Assembly: GCA_022750195.1 (NCBI GenBank)
Contig: JAKIWE010000004.1
Span: forward strand, 62,001 to 126,000
Source of the DNA: Thermoplasmata archaeon
GTDB lineage: Archaea > Thermoplasmatota > Thermoplasmata > Lutacidiplasmatales > UBA184
DNA length: 64,000 nucleotides
Direction of reading: 5' to 3'
The translations under genes were made by a program, and so were the position numbers. The notes under the pieces are model-generated. The model was not told the DNA's origin. It made no database searches and saw nothing but the letters and a program-made list of their open reading frames with translations. Positions 43,296 through 61,983 of the stretch are shown piece by piece (positions within the stretch are counted from its first letter, which is position 1; every line of letters begins with the position of its first letter).

Positions 43296-43320
43296 GACCG
43301 GCGGGCCGGTCCGGTGACCC

Positions 43321-55181: not shown

Positions 55182-57503
55182 ATGAGTGAGCCGGCCGACC
55201 TCGCAACGGGCTCGCCCCACGACGCCTCCCCCGACGGGGACGTCGGGCGGCTGATGCGCGAGCTCGCCGTGAGCGGGTCGACGGCCCGGGCCCTGGTCGC
55301 CGCGGGCCACACGAGCGCCGAGTCGATTCGCCTGCTCCGGGACGAGGAGCTCGAGCGCCTCGGCGTCGACGCGACCGACCTCTCCCGCCTCCGTGCCCAC
55401 GCCGAGGCGTCGAGCACGGACCCGCCGCCGCTCGAGAGCTCAACGCCCCCATCCAAGGGGACGCGGCCGGCCGTCGACGGCAAGAAGAGCGTCGAGCGGT
55501 TCATGGAGAACCAACGTCGCGCCGACCGTCCCCGCCGTCGGCCGGCCTCCTCCCCGAAAGGCGGCTCGACCGAGGTGCTGAAAAAGTGGGTCGACGGCGA
55601 CGACCGGGCGATGGAGGCGTGGATCCAGTCGAGCGAGACCGCGGTCCCGCCGCCGGTCCCCGCGCCGACCCGCCCCCCACGGCCCGAACCCGCGGAAGCG
55701 CCCCCGACCGACGACGCCCTCCCGACCCTCCAACGCACCGGTCCCCGAGCCCCCTCCAACGTTTCCGAGCGGGAGGCGACGGTCGTCCGTTGGCTCACCG
55801 ACCTGCTCGACCGGGTGAAATCCGATCAGTTCGACCCTCGCTCGCTGCTCTCGGACGTCCAGGAGCTGCACCGCCAACTGTTCGAGGAGCGGAGCAAGCG
55901 CAAGCAGCACGAGGAGGAGCTCGAGCACGTCAAGCGCGGCTCGGTCGCGGTCATCAAGTACGTTCGCAGCCGGGAAGCGAAGGCCCGGGAGCAGGCGATC
56001 CAGGCGAAGGACGCCGAGATCGCGGAGCTTAGGCTCAAGCTCCTGAGCGCCGGCATCGTCGCGACCGACGACGGCGCGGCCGCGGGCGCCGACGGCGCCC
56101 CGACCGGACCGTCCGCTCCCTCCCCCGAGGGAGGGCCGGCGAACCTGGCCGCCGTCCGCGAGGTCGAACGCCAACTTCGTGAGGAGTACACCTCCCGGGA
56201 GCACGCGTTCATCGAGCGGGAGACGGAGATGCGCCGTCGCATCGTCCAACTGGAAGGGGAGATCCGCAACCTGCGGGTCGAGGCCCAGCTCACCCAGCAG
56301 CGCGCCTCAACGCCGCTCGACGAGCGAGGGTCGAGCGATGCGAGCCGCCGTCTGAAGGAGGCCGACGCTCGGGAGCGCGAGCTCGCGCTCCGGGAGAACG
56401 AGCTTCGGACGAAGTTCGAGGAGATCCGGATCGCCGCCGAGGAGCTCGAACGGAAGAAGGCGCCGCTCGCCTTCAAGGAAAAGGAGCTCGCCTCGTGGGA
56501 GACCCGCTTGACCGCGACGCGCGGGGCGCTCGAGATCGAGGCGCGTCGCCAGGAGCAGGCGACCGTCGAGGCGCCCGGCGGTGGGGTCGTGAACGCCGCG
56601 CGCGAGCGCGAGCTCGAGGACCTGAAGACCGAGGTGAACCGGAAGGAGGAGGACCTGCGCGCCCGCGAGAGCCTGCTCACGCAGAAGATGGAGGAGCTCG
56701 AGGTGCTCACGCGCAAGGCCGCCGCCGTCGAGGCGGAGGACATCCACGCGACCGCCGTCGGCGAAGCGCGGACCACGCGCGTTCGTACCGGCGTCCGCCG
56801 CCTCGACGACCTCCTGTTCGGGGGCCTGCCGCCGGCCGCGCAGGTCCTGGTGAACGGCCCGGCCCACACCGGCAAGGATGTCCTCACCCGGTTGTTCATC
56901 GCCGAGGGGCTCCGACAGGGCTCGGCGGCGATCTGGGTCTGTTCCGACCGGGCCTACACGCAGATCCGCGAAGAGATGACGGCCGTCCTGCCGAGCTACC
57001 CGGAGTTCGAGGCGAAAGGGGTCGTGCGGTACGTTGACCTGTACTCCCGCGCGCTCGGCGTCACCCAGGCCGACCCGTCGGTCCGGTTGCTGTCTCCGAC
57101 CGACAAGGGCCTCGCCGACCAGCTCGTCCAGGCGGTGAACCAGTTCTCCCAGGAGCTCAAGGAGAAGGCGCCGACCTACCGGCTCGCCTTCGAGTCGGTC
57201 TCGACGGTGACCGCCTACCTCGACGCCGCGGGCGTCTTCCGCTTCCTCCAGCCGTTCGCCGGCCGCCGGAAGCTCGACGGCGCCGCGAGCTACTTCATCC
57301 TGGAGACCGGCATGCACTCGGAGAACGACCTGCAGTCGCTGGAGCACATGATGGACGGCTCGGTGAACCTGAAGGTCGACCAGCTCAAGACGTTCCTCTC
57401 GGTGCGCGGGATCAGCGAGGTGCAGAGCCGCGCCTGGGTCGGCTACACCTTCAGCAAGAAGTCGTTCAGCCTCGGCTCGTTCTCGCTCGACCACATCCGG
57501 TGA
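55182..57503 (+). CDS. N-terminal SAM/HhH-like domain, long coiled coil, C-terminal KaiC-like RecA ATPase
   Basis: N-term RELAVSGSTARALVAAGHTSAESIRLLRDEELERLGV; coiled coil; C-term RTGVRRLDDLLFGGLPPAAQVLVNGPAHTGKDVLTRLFIAEGL. Confidence 0.85.
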   Translation: MSEPADLATGSPHDASPDGDVGRLMRELAVSGSTARALVAAGHTSAESIRLLRDEELERLGVDATDLSRLRAHAEASSTDPPPLESSTPPSKGTRPAVDGKKSVERFMENQRRADRPRRRPASSPKGGSTEVLKKWVDGDDRAMEAWIQSSETAVPPPVPAPTRPPRPEPAEAPPTDDALPTLQRTGPRAPSNVSEREATVVRWLTDLLDRVKSDQFDPRSLLSDVQELHRQLFEERSKRKQHEEELEHVKRGSVAVIKYVRSREAKAREQAIQAKDAEIAELRLKLLSAGIVATDDGAAAGADGAPTGPSAPSPEGGPANLAAVREVERQLREEYTSREHAFIERETEMRRRIVQLEGEIRNLRVEAQLTQQRASTPLDERGSSDASRRLKEADARERELALRENELRTKFEEIRIAAEELERKKAPLAFKEKELASWETRLTATRGALEIEARRQEQATVEAPGGGVVNAARERELEDLKTEVNRKEEDLRARESLLTQKMEELEVLTRKAAAVEAEDIHATAVGEARTTRVRTGVRRLDDLLFGGLPPAAQVLVNGPAHTGKDVLTRLFIAEGLRQGSAAIWVCSDRAYTQIREEMTAVLPSYPEFEAKGVVRYVDLYSRALGVTQADPSVRLLSPTDKGLADQLVQAVNQFSQELKEKAPTYRLAFESVSTVTAYLDAAGVFRFLQPFAGRRKLDGAASYFILETGMHSENDLQSLEHMMDGSVNLKVDQLKTFLSVRGISEVQSRAWVGYTFSKKSFSLGSFSLDHIR

Positions 57504-57527: not shown

Positions 57528-58544
57528 CTAGCCGGAGCGTTTGACCTCGAGGTACTTCTCGCCCCCGTCGCACAGCAGCATGACGCCGATGCCGAAGACG
57601 ACGATGACGGCCGCCGGGAACGTGAACATCCACCAGCTCGCGAACGGCGAGAGCAGGTTGTAGCCGTAGCAGGCGCCGGCGCCCAGCAGGTACCCCCACT
57701 CCGGGAAGATCGCCGTCGGGAACGGGGTGAGCGTGGCGAACAGGCCGGCCTGGCCGTTGCCGAAGCAGCCGATGAACTCGAAGACGGTGAGGACGAAGAA
57801 GACGTTGTAAACGTCGATCGGGACCTGGGCGAGCACCGGGTAGAAGCTGTTGGGTATGATGTGGTGGAGCACCAGTCGCCGGTCCGGCGCGCCAGAGGCG
57901 CGGGAGGCCTCGACATACGCCTCGCGCGCGACCTGTTGGGCGCGGGCCCGTACCGGCCGGGCGTAGTACGGCCAGAGGACGGCAGCGAAGCAGAGCCCGA
58001 AGAGGAGGAGGTACTGCGAAATGTTGACGAGGAGGTGGAGGCCGATCCACAGCACCAGGACGAGGAAGAACGGCGGGACCCCGACGACCACGTCGCCCGC
58101 CGAGGTGATCAGCCAGTCGACGCCCCCGCCGTGGAAGCCGCCGTACGCTCCGAGCAGGACCCCGGCGCTAAGGGCGAGCAGGATGATCCCGCCGATCAGC
58201 GCGAGGTCGAACGGGGTGGCGCGGACGAGCGAGCTCGCGAGGTCGATGCCGATGCCGTTGATCACTCCGAGCGGGTGGCGCGGCGACGGTCCGGGGGGGT
58301 TGAGCGACTGGGCGAGGGCGATGCTCGACGGTACGATCGCGATCGACGACCCGTAGCGAAGCAGCGCGTAGACCGCGATGCCGCCGAACACCAGCAGGAT
58401 CCCCGCGCCCGCGAGCAAGGAAGGCTGGCGCGCAATGCGGCTCCAGCGCACCCCTCGACCCGCGGCAAGGCCGCGGGCGACGGCGGCGTCGAACTCGTCG
58501 AGCTCCGGCGATTCCGATGCCGCCGGCGGAGCGGGCCCGCTCAT
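57528..58544 (-). CDS. Dipeptide/oligopeptide-type ABC transporter permease (DppC-like)
   Basis: VAREAYVEASRASGAPDRRLVLHHIIPNSFYPVLAQVPIDVYNVFFVLTVFEFIG (EAA-loop type). Confidence 0.88.
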   Translation of the reverse strand: MSGPAPPAASESPELDEFDAAVARGLAAGRGVRWSRIARQPSLLAGAGILLVFGGIAVYALLRYGSSIAIVPSSIALAQSLNPPGPSPRHPLGVINGIGIDLASSLVRATPFDLALIGGIILLALSAGVLLGAYGGFHGGGVDWLITSAGDVVVGVPPFFLVLVLWIGLHLLVNISQYLLLFGLCFAAVLWPYYARPVRARAQQVAREAYVEASRASGAPDRRLVLHHIIPNSFYPVLAQVPIDVYNVFFVLTVFEFIGCFGNGQAGLFATLTPFPTAIFPEWGYLLGAGACYGYNLLSPFASWWMFTFPAAVIVVFGIGVMLLCDGGEKYLEVKRSG

Positions 58545-61543
58545 CGGTTCGGCGCGACGAGGCGCGGGTCGAGGTACCGCGCGAGTACATCGGCCGCAAG
58601 GTTGCCGACGAGGATCAGGATGACCAGCATGAACACCGTCACCTGGTAGAAGTTCCCCACGGGCGGACCGGTCCCGCCGGTGGAGATCCCGAACCCCGTG
58701 AGCCCGACCTGGGTGATCTCGCCCAGGAGCAACGTCCCGATCCCGGTGTCGTTCGACAGCGCTTCGACCAGCGCCTGGGTGCCGATGTACACCGGGAGCG
58801 TGATCCCGAAGATCAGCACGAACAGCGGCAGCACGCGACGGGCGGTGTGGTGCCAGAGCAGCGTCGGCTCGTCGAGGCCCCGCGCCCGGGCCGCGACCAC
58901 GAACGGCTCGCGGACGGCGGAGGCGACGGCGTGGCGGGCGTACCGAAGGAAGATCGCGACGTAGACGAGGGCGATCACCGCGGCCTGCAGGAGGGTCTTC
59001 GTGAGCACGATCAGCTCGAAGGTCCACGCGCCGTGAAGCAGACCGTCGAGAAGCGGGAAGCCGGTCGGCTCGGTGTTGTTCCCCTGTCCGATCCACCCCG
59101 GCGGGCCCCCGTGCGAGGCGAACCAGAACTGGGAGGGAAGGATGCCGAACGGCGAATCGCCGAGCGCGTGGAGGACCGGTGTGGAGACCGTCTCGTCGAA
59201 GAGCAGAAGGACGAGGAACGTCGGGATCAAGAGACCGATGATCGAGCCCGTCCTCGCGCCGAAATCGAACGCCGACTCCCGTCGCCAGCCGGCGAGCAGC
59301 CCGACGACGTAGGCGATCGCCGCGGAGAGGCCGAGCGCCACGACCGCGAGCTCGATCGAGTCCGGCGCCCACCACGCGAGGAACTGCGTTGCCGGCAGCG
59401 AGAGGTGGCCAAACCTTGCGAGCCCCCAGTTGAGCGTGAACAGGTTCCAGATGAACGAGCCGAACCCTTCACCGAAGGCCGTCACGGCACAGACCGGGTT
59501 CGACCAGGCGGTCCGTGCGAGGCAGGCGGCGGGCCCAGGGCTCGTGAACAGCGCCGACGGTGAGAAGCCGTACGCCTCGCTGGTGAGGTAGGTCCCGAAG
59601 ACATAGAGGATGAGCAGCGCGCCGACGACCTGGACCGGGAGGAGCGCGGTTCGCATGAGGACGAACCGCGCGATCGGCGTCAGGATCGCGGGAGGGAGTC
59701 CTTCGGCCCTGCGGCGCCGCTGGGAGTCGACCACGTAGTAGCCGACCGCTCCCAACGCGAGGCCGGCCAGCGGGAGGAGGATCGCGACGCGACCGGAGGT
59801 CGGGTCGCCGAACGCGGGGGCATTCGAGTCGAGCTGAAGGGCGATCGCGCTGACCGGTCCTCCCGAGACGTCGACGTGGGTCGCGAGCCCGACGTACCCT
59901 TGCGGGGGATCGACGCTGAGGAAGTTCGAACCGTTCGGCGCGGCGAGGACGAACAGCCCGAGGCGGCCGGTCGTGTTCGATGCGACGTACCCGTACTCCC
60001 CCTCGATGATGACCACGACCCCGACGAGGGGATGGCCGGAACGGGAATCGACCACCGAGCCGGAGATCCGGTAGAAGGCCGGAGGCCGGAGAACGAAGTC
60101 GACGCCCGCCAGCGGACCGGCGACGACGACGGTCTTGGTCACGGGCGGGTACCCCGCGCCCCCGGCGGTGAGGTCGTAGGTCCCGTTCGAGAGGTTGAGC
60201 AGGTAGCGGCCCTGCCGGTCGGTCGTCGTGGCGGCGACCCCGGCGCCGACCTGCGCGCCGGCGATCGCGGTGCCGTTCCGGTCGGTGACGATTCCGGTGA
60301 CCGGCTCGACGGGGCCCGTGACGCCGGGGCGCCCGAAGCCGGTCAGGCAGCCGACCTCGTTCCCGACGTAGAGAAGCCCCCGCTCGAGCGCGGGGGACGA
60401 GTAGACCGCTGAGCTGAACAGGTTCGAGCTCCAGAGCAGCTGGCCGGTCCCGGGCGTGTAGGCGTCGAGGAACTCGTTTGCGTCGACCAAGTAGACCGCG
60501 TTGAAACCGAGCGCGGGGCTCGAGAGAACCGGGTAGCCGGTGTAGCCGAGCAGGTGCGCCCAGAGCAGGCTGCCGTTCCTGGCGGAGAGGGCCAGCACGC
60601 GACCGAGGTCCGTGACGACGAACACCCCGCCGTCGCCGACCGCCGGCGTCGACTCGATCACATCCCCGTGGAGCGCCGCGTAGCCGGGGAACTGCCAGAG
60701 CTCCGAACCGTTCCCGGTCGAGAGCGCCGTGATGTTCGCGCTGCGGTCGCCGAGGATGACCGCCCCGTACGACACGGCGGGGGCGCTGTCCACCGGAGCC
60801 CCGACCGAGTGGGACCAGAGGAGGGCACCGTCCAAGCTCAGCGCGAGCACGGTGCCGTTCCCGGTCGCGACGAACAGCTCGTTCCCCTCGAGGGCGGGCG
60901 CCCCCGCGACCCCGTTGCCCAGCGCGAGCCGCCAATCGACATGGCCGGTCGCGACGTCGATGGCGGCGAGCGTCCCCGTCGTCGTGCCGACATACACGCG
61001 GGCGCCGTCGTCGGCGATCCCTTGCACGATCCGCCCGCCGAGGTTCACGTTCCAGACGACCGTCCCGCTGTCGGCGGCGTACGCGGTGACGGTGCCGTCG
61101 CCCCCGCCGAGGATGAGGAACGGGGCGAGCAGGTCGGCGGTGGTCGGGTCGGTAGGGCCGGCCGTCGTCCACTCCAGCACGGCGGTCGTATTGTAGGCGT
61201 AGACGTGCCCCAGGGCGTCGGCGACGAAGACGCGCGTCGCGTTCGCGACCGGACCGACCCGGATCGGGCTCGCGTTGCCGCCCGCCCCTTGGCAGGTGAT
61301 GAACGCCGTGCTGCCCTGGGCGGGGCCGTTCGTTGGGACGAAGCCACTTCGGTTCTGACCGCCGTGGAACGTCGTCCAGTCGATCGGCCCGGCAACTACC
61401 GGACGCGTCGAGAGCGTGAGCGGCGCTCCGGGCGTCGGCCCGGGGGGCACGAGCGCGACGGAGAGCAGCGCGAGGACCGCGAGCAGTCCCAAGGCGACCC
61501 ATCGGGACCGCCGGCCGCCCACTCCGACCCCCGGCCGAGGCAT
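58541..61543 (-). CDS. PQQ-type beta-propeller + carboxypeptidase-regulatory-like domains fused to DppB-like ABC permease
   Basis: Repeated SSPALGFNAVYLVDANEFLDAYTPGTGQLLWS-type blades; TGIVTDRNGTAIAGAQVGAGVAATTTDRQGRYLLNLSNGTYDLTAGGAGY; C-term FVVAARARGLDEPTLLWHHTARRVLPLFVLIFGITLPVYIGTQALVEALSNDTGIG. Confidence 0.9.
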   Translation of the reverse strand: MPRPGVGVGGRRSRWVALGLLAVLALLSVALVPPGPTPGAPLTLSTRPVVAGPIDWTTFHGGQNRSGFVPTNGPAQGSTAFITCQGAGGNASPIRVGPVANATRVFVADALGHVYAYNTTAVLEWTTAGPTDPTTADLLAPFLILGGGDGTVTAYAADSGTVVWNVNLGGRIVQGIADDGARVYVGTTTGTLAAIDVATGHVDWRLALGNGVAGAPALEGNELFVATGNGTVLALSLDGALLWSHSVGAPVDSAPAVSYGAVILGDRSANITALSTGNGSELWQFPGYAALHGDVIESTPAVGDGGVFVVTDLGRVLALSARNGSLLWAHLLGYTGYPVLSSPALGFNAVYLVDANEFLDAYTPGTGQLLWSSNLFSSAVYSSPALERGLLYVGNEVGCLTGFGRPGVTGPVEPVTGIVTDRNGTAIAGAQVGAGVAATTTDRQGRYLLNLSNGTYDLTAGGAGYPPVTKTVVVAGPLAGVDFVLRPPAFYRISGSVVDSRSGHPLVGVVVIIEGEYGYVASNTTGRLGLFVLAAPNGSNFLSVDPPQGYVGLATHVDVSGGPVSAIALQLDSNAPAFGDPTSGRVAILLPLAGLALGAVGYYVVDSQRRRRAEGLPPAILTPIARFVLMRTALLPVQVVGALLILYVFGTYLTSEAYGFSPSALFTSPGPAACLARTAWSNPVCAVTAFGEGFGSFIWNLFTLNWGLARFGHLSLPATQFLAWWAPDSIELAVVALGLSAAIAYVVGLLAGWRRESAFDFGARTGSIIGLLIPTFLVLLLFDETVSTPVLHALGDSPFGILPSQFWFASHGGPPGWIGQGNNTEPTGFPLLDGLLHGAWTFELIVLTKTLLQAAVIALVYVAIFLRYARHAVASAVREPFVVAARARGLDEPTLLWHHTARRVLPLFVLIFGITLPVYIGTQALVEALSNDTGIGTLLLGEITQVGLTGFGISTGGTGPPVGNFYQVTVFMLVILILVGNLAADVLARYLDPRLVAPNR

Positions 61544-61649
61544 CCGACGCCTTCCCGCCGCCGGAAAGGTCCCACTCGTCTTGAGCTGGTCTCCCGTGCG
61601 TGCGCGAGGGCGAGCCCTTTTGAGCGCCCGCGCTGTGGTTCGTCGCTAG

Positions 61650-61955
61650 GCTAGACCGGGGGGTTGGGCGTCCCCTTTTACACCGAAACCGTCCTTAGCG
61701 GGGGTGACAGGCAGGAGCGACGTTCGGGCGGACCTTTCGTCCCAAGGATCTTCGTCGAAGCTCTGTTCCATCGGGCCGCGGGCCCCGCGACGAGCGCCCG
61801 GAGGGGCGCCCTAGCGGGTATCCATCACGGGCACCGGGTCAGGTCCTGACGGGAGCAGCCTTACCGTGACCCGTCGACGCTGGTGGGGCTACGGGGCGGA
61901 GAAGCGGCCGGGAGTCACGACCGGTTCCCCCGGGCGGCCATTCCGCTGGCCTAGC
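61650..61955 (+). ncRNA. ffs: SRP 7S RNA
   Basis: 5' GCTAGACCGGGGGGTTGGGCGTCCCC resembles archaeal 7S RNA; S-domain helix 8 GGGTCAGGTCC-TGAC-GGGAGCAGCC; 3' GGCCTAGC pairs with 5' GCTAGACC (one A.C mismatch); about 306 nt. Confidence 0.88.
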
Positions 61956-61983
61956 ACCCCGCTCGTCGGATCGACGGGGTGCT
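61953..61983 (+). terminator. Perfect 9-bp stem-loop at the SRP RNA 3' end (terminator/processing candidate)
   Basis: AGCACCCCG-N13-CGGGGTGCT. Confidence 0.45.

Follow-up and report, generated by a model that had tools for sequence, protein, structure and literature searches.

Architecture of the fusion gene

The 64,000-nucleotide stretch of DNA analysed here (the window; GenBank assembly GCA_022750195.1, contig JAKIWE010000004.1, positions 62,001 to 126,000) comes from a Thermoplasmata archaeon of the Lutacidiplasmatales, and towards its end lies a gene that joins a β-propeller of the PQQ_2 type, two carboxypeptidase-regulatory-like domains (CarboxypepD_reg, also called transthyretin-like or TTR) and a complete DppB-like permease of the ATP-binding cassette (ABC) class in a single chain (Table 1). 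This architecture had been predicted from the sequence alone (hereafter the original prediction), and it is borne out by the open reading frame (ORF), Pfam, AlphaFold2 and Foldseek, while the DppC-like gene said to follow with an ATGA overlap is indeed present at 57528–58544. The ORF runs for 1000 codons without interruption from 61543 to 58541 on the minus strand, and its start codon is the earliest ATG, GTG or TTG of the open frame. Pfam places PQQ_2 (6e-39), CarboxypepD_reg in two stretches (4e-16) and BPD_transp_1 at residues 745–995 (2e-18; 67 bits against a cut-off of 26.4), and the same scan of the protein returned no match to a substrate-binding protein (SBP) family.

The AlphaFold2 model of the fusion protein, made from a 29-row alignment, has propeller strands at residues 79–403, β-sandwiches at 412–474 and 490–571, a transmembrane (TM) helix at 586–614 and permease helices at 623–996. 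Its mean predicted local distance difference test score (pLDDT) is 81 and its predicted template modelling score (pTM) is 0.50, so the relative placement of the domains is unreliable. Foldseek groups the propeller with eight-bladed BamB-like structures, including BamB itself and the designed protein Cake8 (root-mean-square deviation 1.8 Å, TM-score 0.92 on the target), and it has both the PF13360 match and the eight-bladed fold of BamB-like PQQ_2 propellers. The charges between the hydrophobic segments follow a positive-inside pattern, which places residues 34–582 on the outside, and this ectodomain contains 13 N-glycosylation sequons compared with 3.45 expected by shuffling. It has only two cysteines, Cys84 and Cys399, which are not vicinal; both equivalents are present in 11 of 16 fusion sequences and neither in the other five (Fisher p 2e-4, a value that ignores relatedness), and this joint presence or absence suggests that a disulfide closes the propeller.

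Table 1. Features of the fusion gene and its partner gene (window coordinates).
Feature	Position	Strand	Evidence
Fusion gene, 1000 aa: signal/TM, PQQ_2 propeller, two CarboxypepD_reg, TM, DppB-like permease	58541..61543	minus	ORF, Pfam, AlphaFold2
Hydrophobic N-terminal segment, residues 15–33, signal peptide or anchor	61445..61501	minus	hydropathy; model helix 14–28
PQQ_2/BamB-like 8-bladed propeller, residues 56–405	60329..61378	minus	Pfam, AlphaFold2, Foldseek
CarboxypepD_reg (transthyretin-like) domain 1, residues 412–487	60083..60310	minus	Pfam, AlphaFold2
CarboxypepD_reg-like domain 2, residues 490–575	59819..60076	minus	Pfam, AlphaFold2
Linking TM helix 583–614 with RRRR, chain back to cytoplasm	59702..59797	minus	AlphaFold2, hydropathy/charge
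Complete DppB-like permease, residues 623–998	58550..59677	minus	BPD_transp_1; profile match to E. coli DppB 8z1v
External TM1–TM2 loop without DppB scoop motif	59423..59599	minus	profile alignment, motif count
Coupling-helix (EAA) region; G and R retained; DppD-contact D235/T239/N258 substituted	58826..58918	minus	alignment
X-type DppC-like permease partner, 338 aa, ATGA overlap with fusion gene	57528..58544	minus	ORF, Pfam

Recurrence, synteny and selection

The full fusion occurs in 12 of the 78 genomes of the host genus (twice in five of the 12) and a second genus adds four further genomes, giving 21 PQQ fusion genes in 16 of the 103 genomes of one Thermoplasmata family (Lutacidiplasmatales); this is the search in related genomes that the original prediction had proposed. 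It had also named two findings that would speak against it, a mis-assembly and relatives with separate propeller and permease genes divided by a stop, and the latter was looked for but not found. That two genes were joined by mis-assembly or mis-annotation might have been suspected of a draft genome with 5.57% estimated contamination, but the 16 genomes are independent assemblies from several projects, the synteny is conserved and the fusion sequences are 40–70% identical. The fusion is therefore due neither to chance nor to mis-assembly, and an artefact, already refuted by this recurrence, has next to no probability left. The ratio of non-synonymous to synonymous substitution rates (dN/dS) in five species pairs is 0.28–0.37 for the propeller, 0.38–0.44 for the TTR domains and 0.16–0.24 for the permease, and all three parts are under purifying selection.

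Two syntenic loci can be recognised. At locus A the fusion is found with SHMT, a KaiC-like coiled-coil gene and TyrRS, and at locus B it is flanked by a MetE-like gene on one side and by an MFS or map gene on the other. The locus-A neighbour in the window (55182–57503, plus strand) encodes a 773-amino-acid (aa) coiled-coil protein with a KaiC-type ATPase domain and is conserved beside the fusion in many relatives. The MetE-like and MFS genes of the window meet at a 25-base junction (43296–43320) where G055 and G108 have a second, paralogous propeller–permease pair and this genome has none. On the other side of the fusion gene, an archaeal signal recognition particle RNA gene (Rfam RF01857, 125 bits; window 61644–61956, plus strand) starts about 100 bases upstream of its start codon on the opposite strand.

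A permease subfamily with exchangeable ectodomains

We delimited the permeases related to the fusion as a subfamily, X, with a profile (A3) built from fusion-type permeases. Across 400 genomes of the class, all matches with E <= 4e-82 fall in this one family and canonical OppB comes next, from 4e-57, and a phylum sample of 390 genomes held no X permease beyond the family. Among the 103 genomes of the family the subfamily is represented by 60 genes, spread over 42 genomes, and in the tree it splits from the canonical permeases with 100/100 support. The systematic search for propeller fusions covered the permeases of X. A domain search of the 60 X genes identified a PQQ propeller in 21 and a Kelch propeller with PKD in another 21, and left 15 without an ectodomain; the remaining genes have a CarboxypepD_reg (TTR) domain only (G048), Ig-like repeats seen by eye but without a Pfam match (G026), or are cut by a contig end (one gene). 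L138, truncated by a contig end, was excluded from the count, and L139 was rejected as a permease-only gene as its start had been miscalled and the open frame of 908 codons includes Kelch.

The Kelch and PKD ectodomain occupies the same position as the PQQ propeller, and the two share no profile–profile similarity (hhalign probability 0.2%). X is a permease subfamily with exchangeable ectodomains, and the fusion is one of its architectures; the original prediction described the fusion itself correctly but missed this wider subfamily, some members of which have no ectodomain at all. DppB and DppC are joined in one chain in two Kelch forms (L132/L188 and L136/L189), the first a 1301-aa chain of Kelch propeller, PKD, DppB and DppC (L132:4378-8283) and the second of the same architecture with its 5′ end cut, and G102 has a 1293-aa chain (L094:2573-6454) of thermopsin (1e-35), a beta-helix-like region and X-type DppC (BPD_transp_1, 5e-15). 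We note that in L113, L116, L140 and L141 one propeller–permease gene is followed by two tandem X-type DppC genes, which suggests alternative partners, and that the X permeases of genus g36 (L190, L191, L192 and L193) show several further Kelch–PKD profile matches after the first, which suggests longer ectodomains. A single clade of PQQ forms is not rejected (approximately unbiased test, p = 0.48) and the Kelch rows group weakly (47/12) after removal of long branches; each would fit one origin, in a tree that does not order the two ectodomains in age.

Scoop motif and ATPase contacts

The DppB subunit of E. coli DppABCDF has a scoop motif between TM1 and TM2 which reaches into the cleft of the SBP and closes off the cavity, and activation of the ATPase requires DppA (PMC12136057). 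In a profile alignment to solved DppB (matches 8z1v, 8wd9 and 8z21) the segment holding the scoop is missing from the X family, and the scoop-associated helix motif is found in none of 59 X permeases compared with 16 of 16 canonical archaeal OppB/DppB and 3 of 3 solved DppB/OppB. The TM1–TM2 loop is also shorter in most Kelch and permease-only X forms. We infer that the scoop was lost across the X subfamily, and because the motif was tested for and is absent, the fusion permease should not be classed as a canonical Dpp/Opp permease.

All 16 canonical permeases and none of the 59 X permeases retain the residues through which DppB contacts DppD (D235, T239 and N258), while in the X-DppB coupling helix G244 is invariant and R241, R257 and H254 are mostly retained. 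In its coupling helix X-DppC is similar to canonical OppC (E194, H210 and N214), and an X-type DppC adjoins the X-type DppB across the genus. This asymmetry between the two coupling helices suggests that an OppF-like ATPase may still engage the DppC side, the DppB side having been rebuilt.

As far as the contigs reach, neither an OppD/F-type ATPase nor an SBP gene is encountered within 6 kb of a propeller fusion, in agreement with the absence of adjacent genes of either kind originally described. Two ATPase-like matches were rejected as OppD/F partners, the one near G112 belonging to an ABC exporter and the one near G389 having a best match that is not OppD/F-type. Only four oligo_HPY ATPases are encoded in the host genome, and they belong to two other clusters, which would place any partner ATPase elsewhere as had been anticipated; its SBP_bac_5 genes are likewise in clusters separate from the fusion. 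Two unusually large surface-type SBP_bac_5 proteins with PKD domains (about 1000–1090 aa; L100:8187-11468 and L099:4237-7236) are encoded in this genome. Elsewhere in the subfamily an X pair lies directly behind OppB-C-D-F in G014 and G031, and behind OppF at a contig end in G115 (all permease-only). The sharing of ATPases among importers has a precedent in MsmX (PMC7658222).

Clues to the substrate

Peptides are our default guess at the substrate of the X pairs, because these are relatives of Dpp/Opp. Half of the thermopsin genes of G102 (three of six) are located at X loci, pro-kumamolisin (S53-type) genes are divergent beside two Kelch-X genes, and PNGase A-like genes lie beside two X pairs, a gene context which supports extracellular protein breakdown. 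Next to one X pair of G102 lies a 395-aa gene with a YVTN-like appearance by eye; since it has no Pfam match, we do not claim it as a propeller. The Lutacidiplasmatales are reported to encode thermopsin, S53 and A4 extracellular peptidases together with a peptide/nickel ABC system (PMC9287336). The solved folds nearest to the Kelch model (pLDDT 72.8, lower than for the PQQ fusion model) are mostly protein- or peptide-binding Kelch domains and include the C-degron binders KLHDC2, KLHDC3 and KLHDC10, a likeness between a model and known folds which is a lead and not evidence of peptide binding.

Proposed mechanism and alternative explanations

Type I ABC importers are taken to require an SBP. 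For the fusion, the evidence at the level of the sequence establishes the architecture, its recurrence, the topology signals and the loss of the scoop motif. The interpretation we favour, which we hold to be evenly poised between right and wrong, is that the fusion may form an oligopeptide importer that works without an SBP, captures its substrate with the tethered propeller and draws on ATPases encoded elsewhere. The chain would enter the membrane and display the propeller and two spacer domains outside, re-enter through one TM helix and continue as a full six-helix permease, which would pair with the product of the overlapping DppC-like gene. In place of a free SBP, the tethered propeller would capture the substrate (oligopeptides, or protein or glycopeptide fragments released by acidic surface proteases) and hold it at the entrance to the pore. 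Transport would be powered by oligopeptide-type ATPases from other loci, most probably through an OppF-type subunit on the DppC side, with the contact on the DppB side rebuilt. We infer the substrate, the capture by the propeller and the identity of the ATPases; the original suggestion that the propeller could replace a binding module gains indirect support from the missing scoop and from the unrelated propeller found in the same position in relatives. More tentatively, and as a proposal rather more apt to fail than to hold, the X subfamily as a whole may have dropped the SBP and its docking scoop, with tethered, exchangeable modules (two propeller families, Ig-like repeats and a protease on the partner subunit) capturing or generating oligopeptides at the pore and with ATPases shared with ordinary Opp systems via the DppC side.

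Several observations weigh against an SBP-independent importer. Permease-only genes make up 15 of the 60 X genes, so members of the subfamily can do without an ectodomain, and the permease-only X pair of G031 adjoins an Opp SBP. With D235, T239 and N258 replaced in X-DppB, OppD may not couple. Most loops of the PQQ forms are of canonical length with an unrelated sequence, often including a cysteine, and the loss of the scoop is read from sequences only. The PQQ fusions adjoin housekeeping genes and not proteases, and as propeller–PKD modules are common as stand-alone archaeal surface proteins (PMC5498576, PMC10354927), tethering could serve adhesion.

This last point leads to the main rival, in which the ectodomain acts in adhesion or as a scaffold: by binding polymers, other cells or surface proteases it would hold the importer close to its food, while an SBP encoded elsewhere (e.g. 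a PKD-anchored Opp SBP) delivers the substrate. Modules of the propeller, PKD and TTR kinds are typical of archaeal surfaces (PMC5498576, PMC10354927), the genome has PKD–SBP_bac_5 proteins, the thermopsin–X-DppC fusion fits co-localisation rather than binding, and ectodomains are swapped and sometimes absent. The SBP-engaging scoop motif is, however, missing from every X member tested and there is no SBP gene near any propeller fusion, and we regard a scaffold as possible but doubtful. The absence of an ATPase gene at the locus and the replacement of the three ATPase-contact residues of DppB would also suit a permease part that is a transport-inactive membrane anchor or sensor, the protein signalling or holding the propeller at the surface. 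We find this improbable given that the permease is the most constrained part by dN/dS, that the coupling-helix G and R are retained, that the adjoining DppC partner is kept and has a coupling helix close to the canonical one, and that DppB and DppC form a single chain in two genes. Quinoprotein (PQQ-dependent) dehydrogenases have a PQQ-binding propeller with a vicinal disulfide, and the propeller could be an enzyme of this kind, or one like tetrathionate hydrolase, whose product is imported. Tetrathionate hydrolase 7cqy is among the Foldseek matches at 15% identity, but BamB-like folds match better, the only two ectodomain cysteines are not vicinal and are both lacking in 5/16 sequences, and PF01011 scores 23.2 bits, under its cut-off of 26.7; an enzyme is accordingly a very remote prospect.

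Significance and comparison with known systems

The hosts are uncultured archaea of acid soil. The X subfamily, with no DppB scoop motif and two unrelated propellers at the same position, would let the replaceability of SBP dependence be tested directly, and the propeller may represent a novel means by which food molecules are delivered to a pump. If the proposed importer is real, it would show how extracellular proteolysis might be linked to uptake in acidophilic archaea and would provide a sequence rule (scoop loss and coupling-helix asymmetry) by which to recognise such importers in other genomes. Searches of open-access papers turned up no earlier report of a propeller– or Kelch–permease fusion, and the original remark that no standard ABC importer with this architecture is known is upheld.

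The permease shares its homologous fold, the DppB–DppC pairing and the coupling helix with E. coli DppB/DppC (DppABCDF) and the Opp permeases. Unlike these, it has an N-terminal ectodomain, lacks the scoop motif and has three DppD-contact residues replaced, and its operon includes neither an SBP_bac_5 nor an oligo_HPY ATPase gene. OpuA and GlnPQ, in whose manner the fusion would work, also have an extracellular module on the permease chain (PMC11065425, PMC8025302), but theirs is a periplasmic-binding-protein domain, whereas that of the fusion is a propeller with spacer domains in which no SBP domain was detected. BamB and other PQQ_2 propellers share the fold and Pfam family, although BamB belongs to the outer-membrane BAM machine and here the propeller is on an archaeal ABC permease. 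Archaeal propeller and PKD surface proteins (PMC5498576, PMC10354927) are built from the same kind of modules, but they are stand-alone or fused for adhesion, with none reported on an ABC permease in the literature examined. AztD, a β-propeller which hands zinc to the SBP of AztABC (PMC6689063), differs in being separate from the permease, in carrying zinc, in feeding an SBP and in having no link to the Dpp family, yet it too serves an ABC importer from the outside and is the nearest precedent for a propeller in this role.

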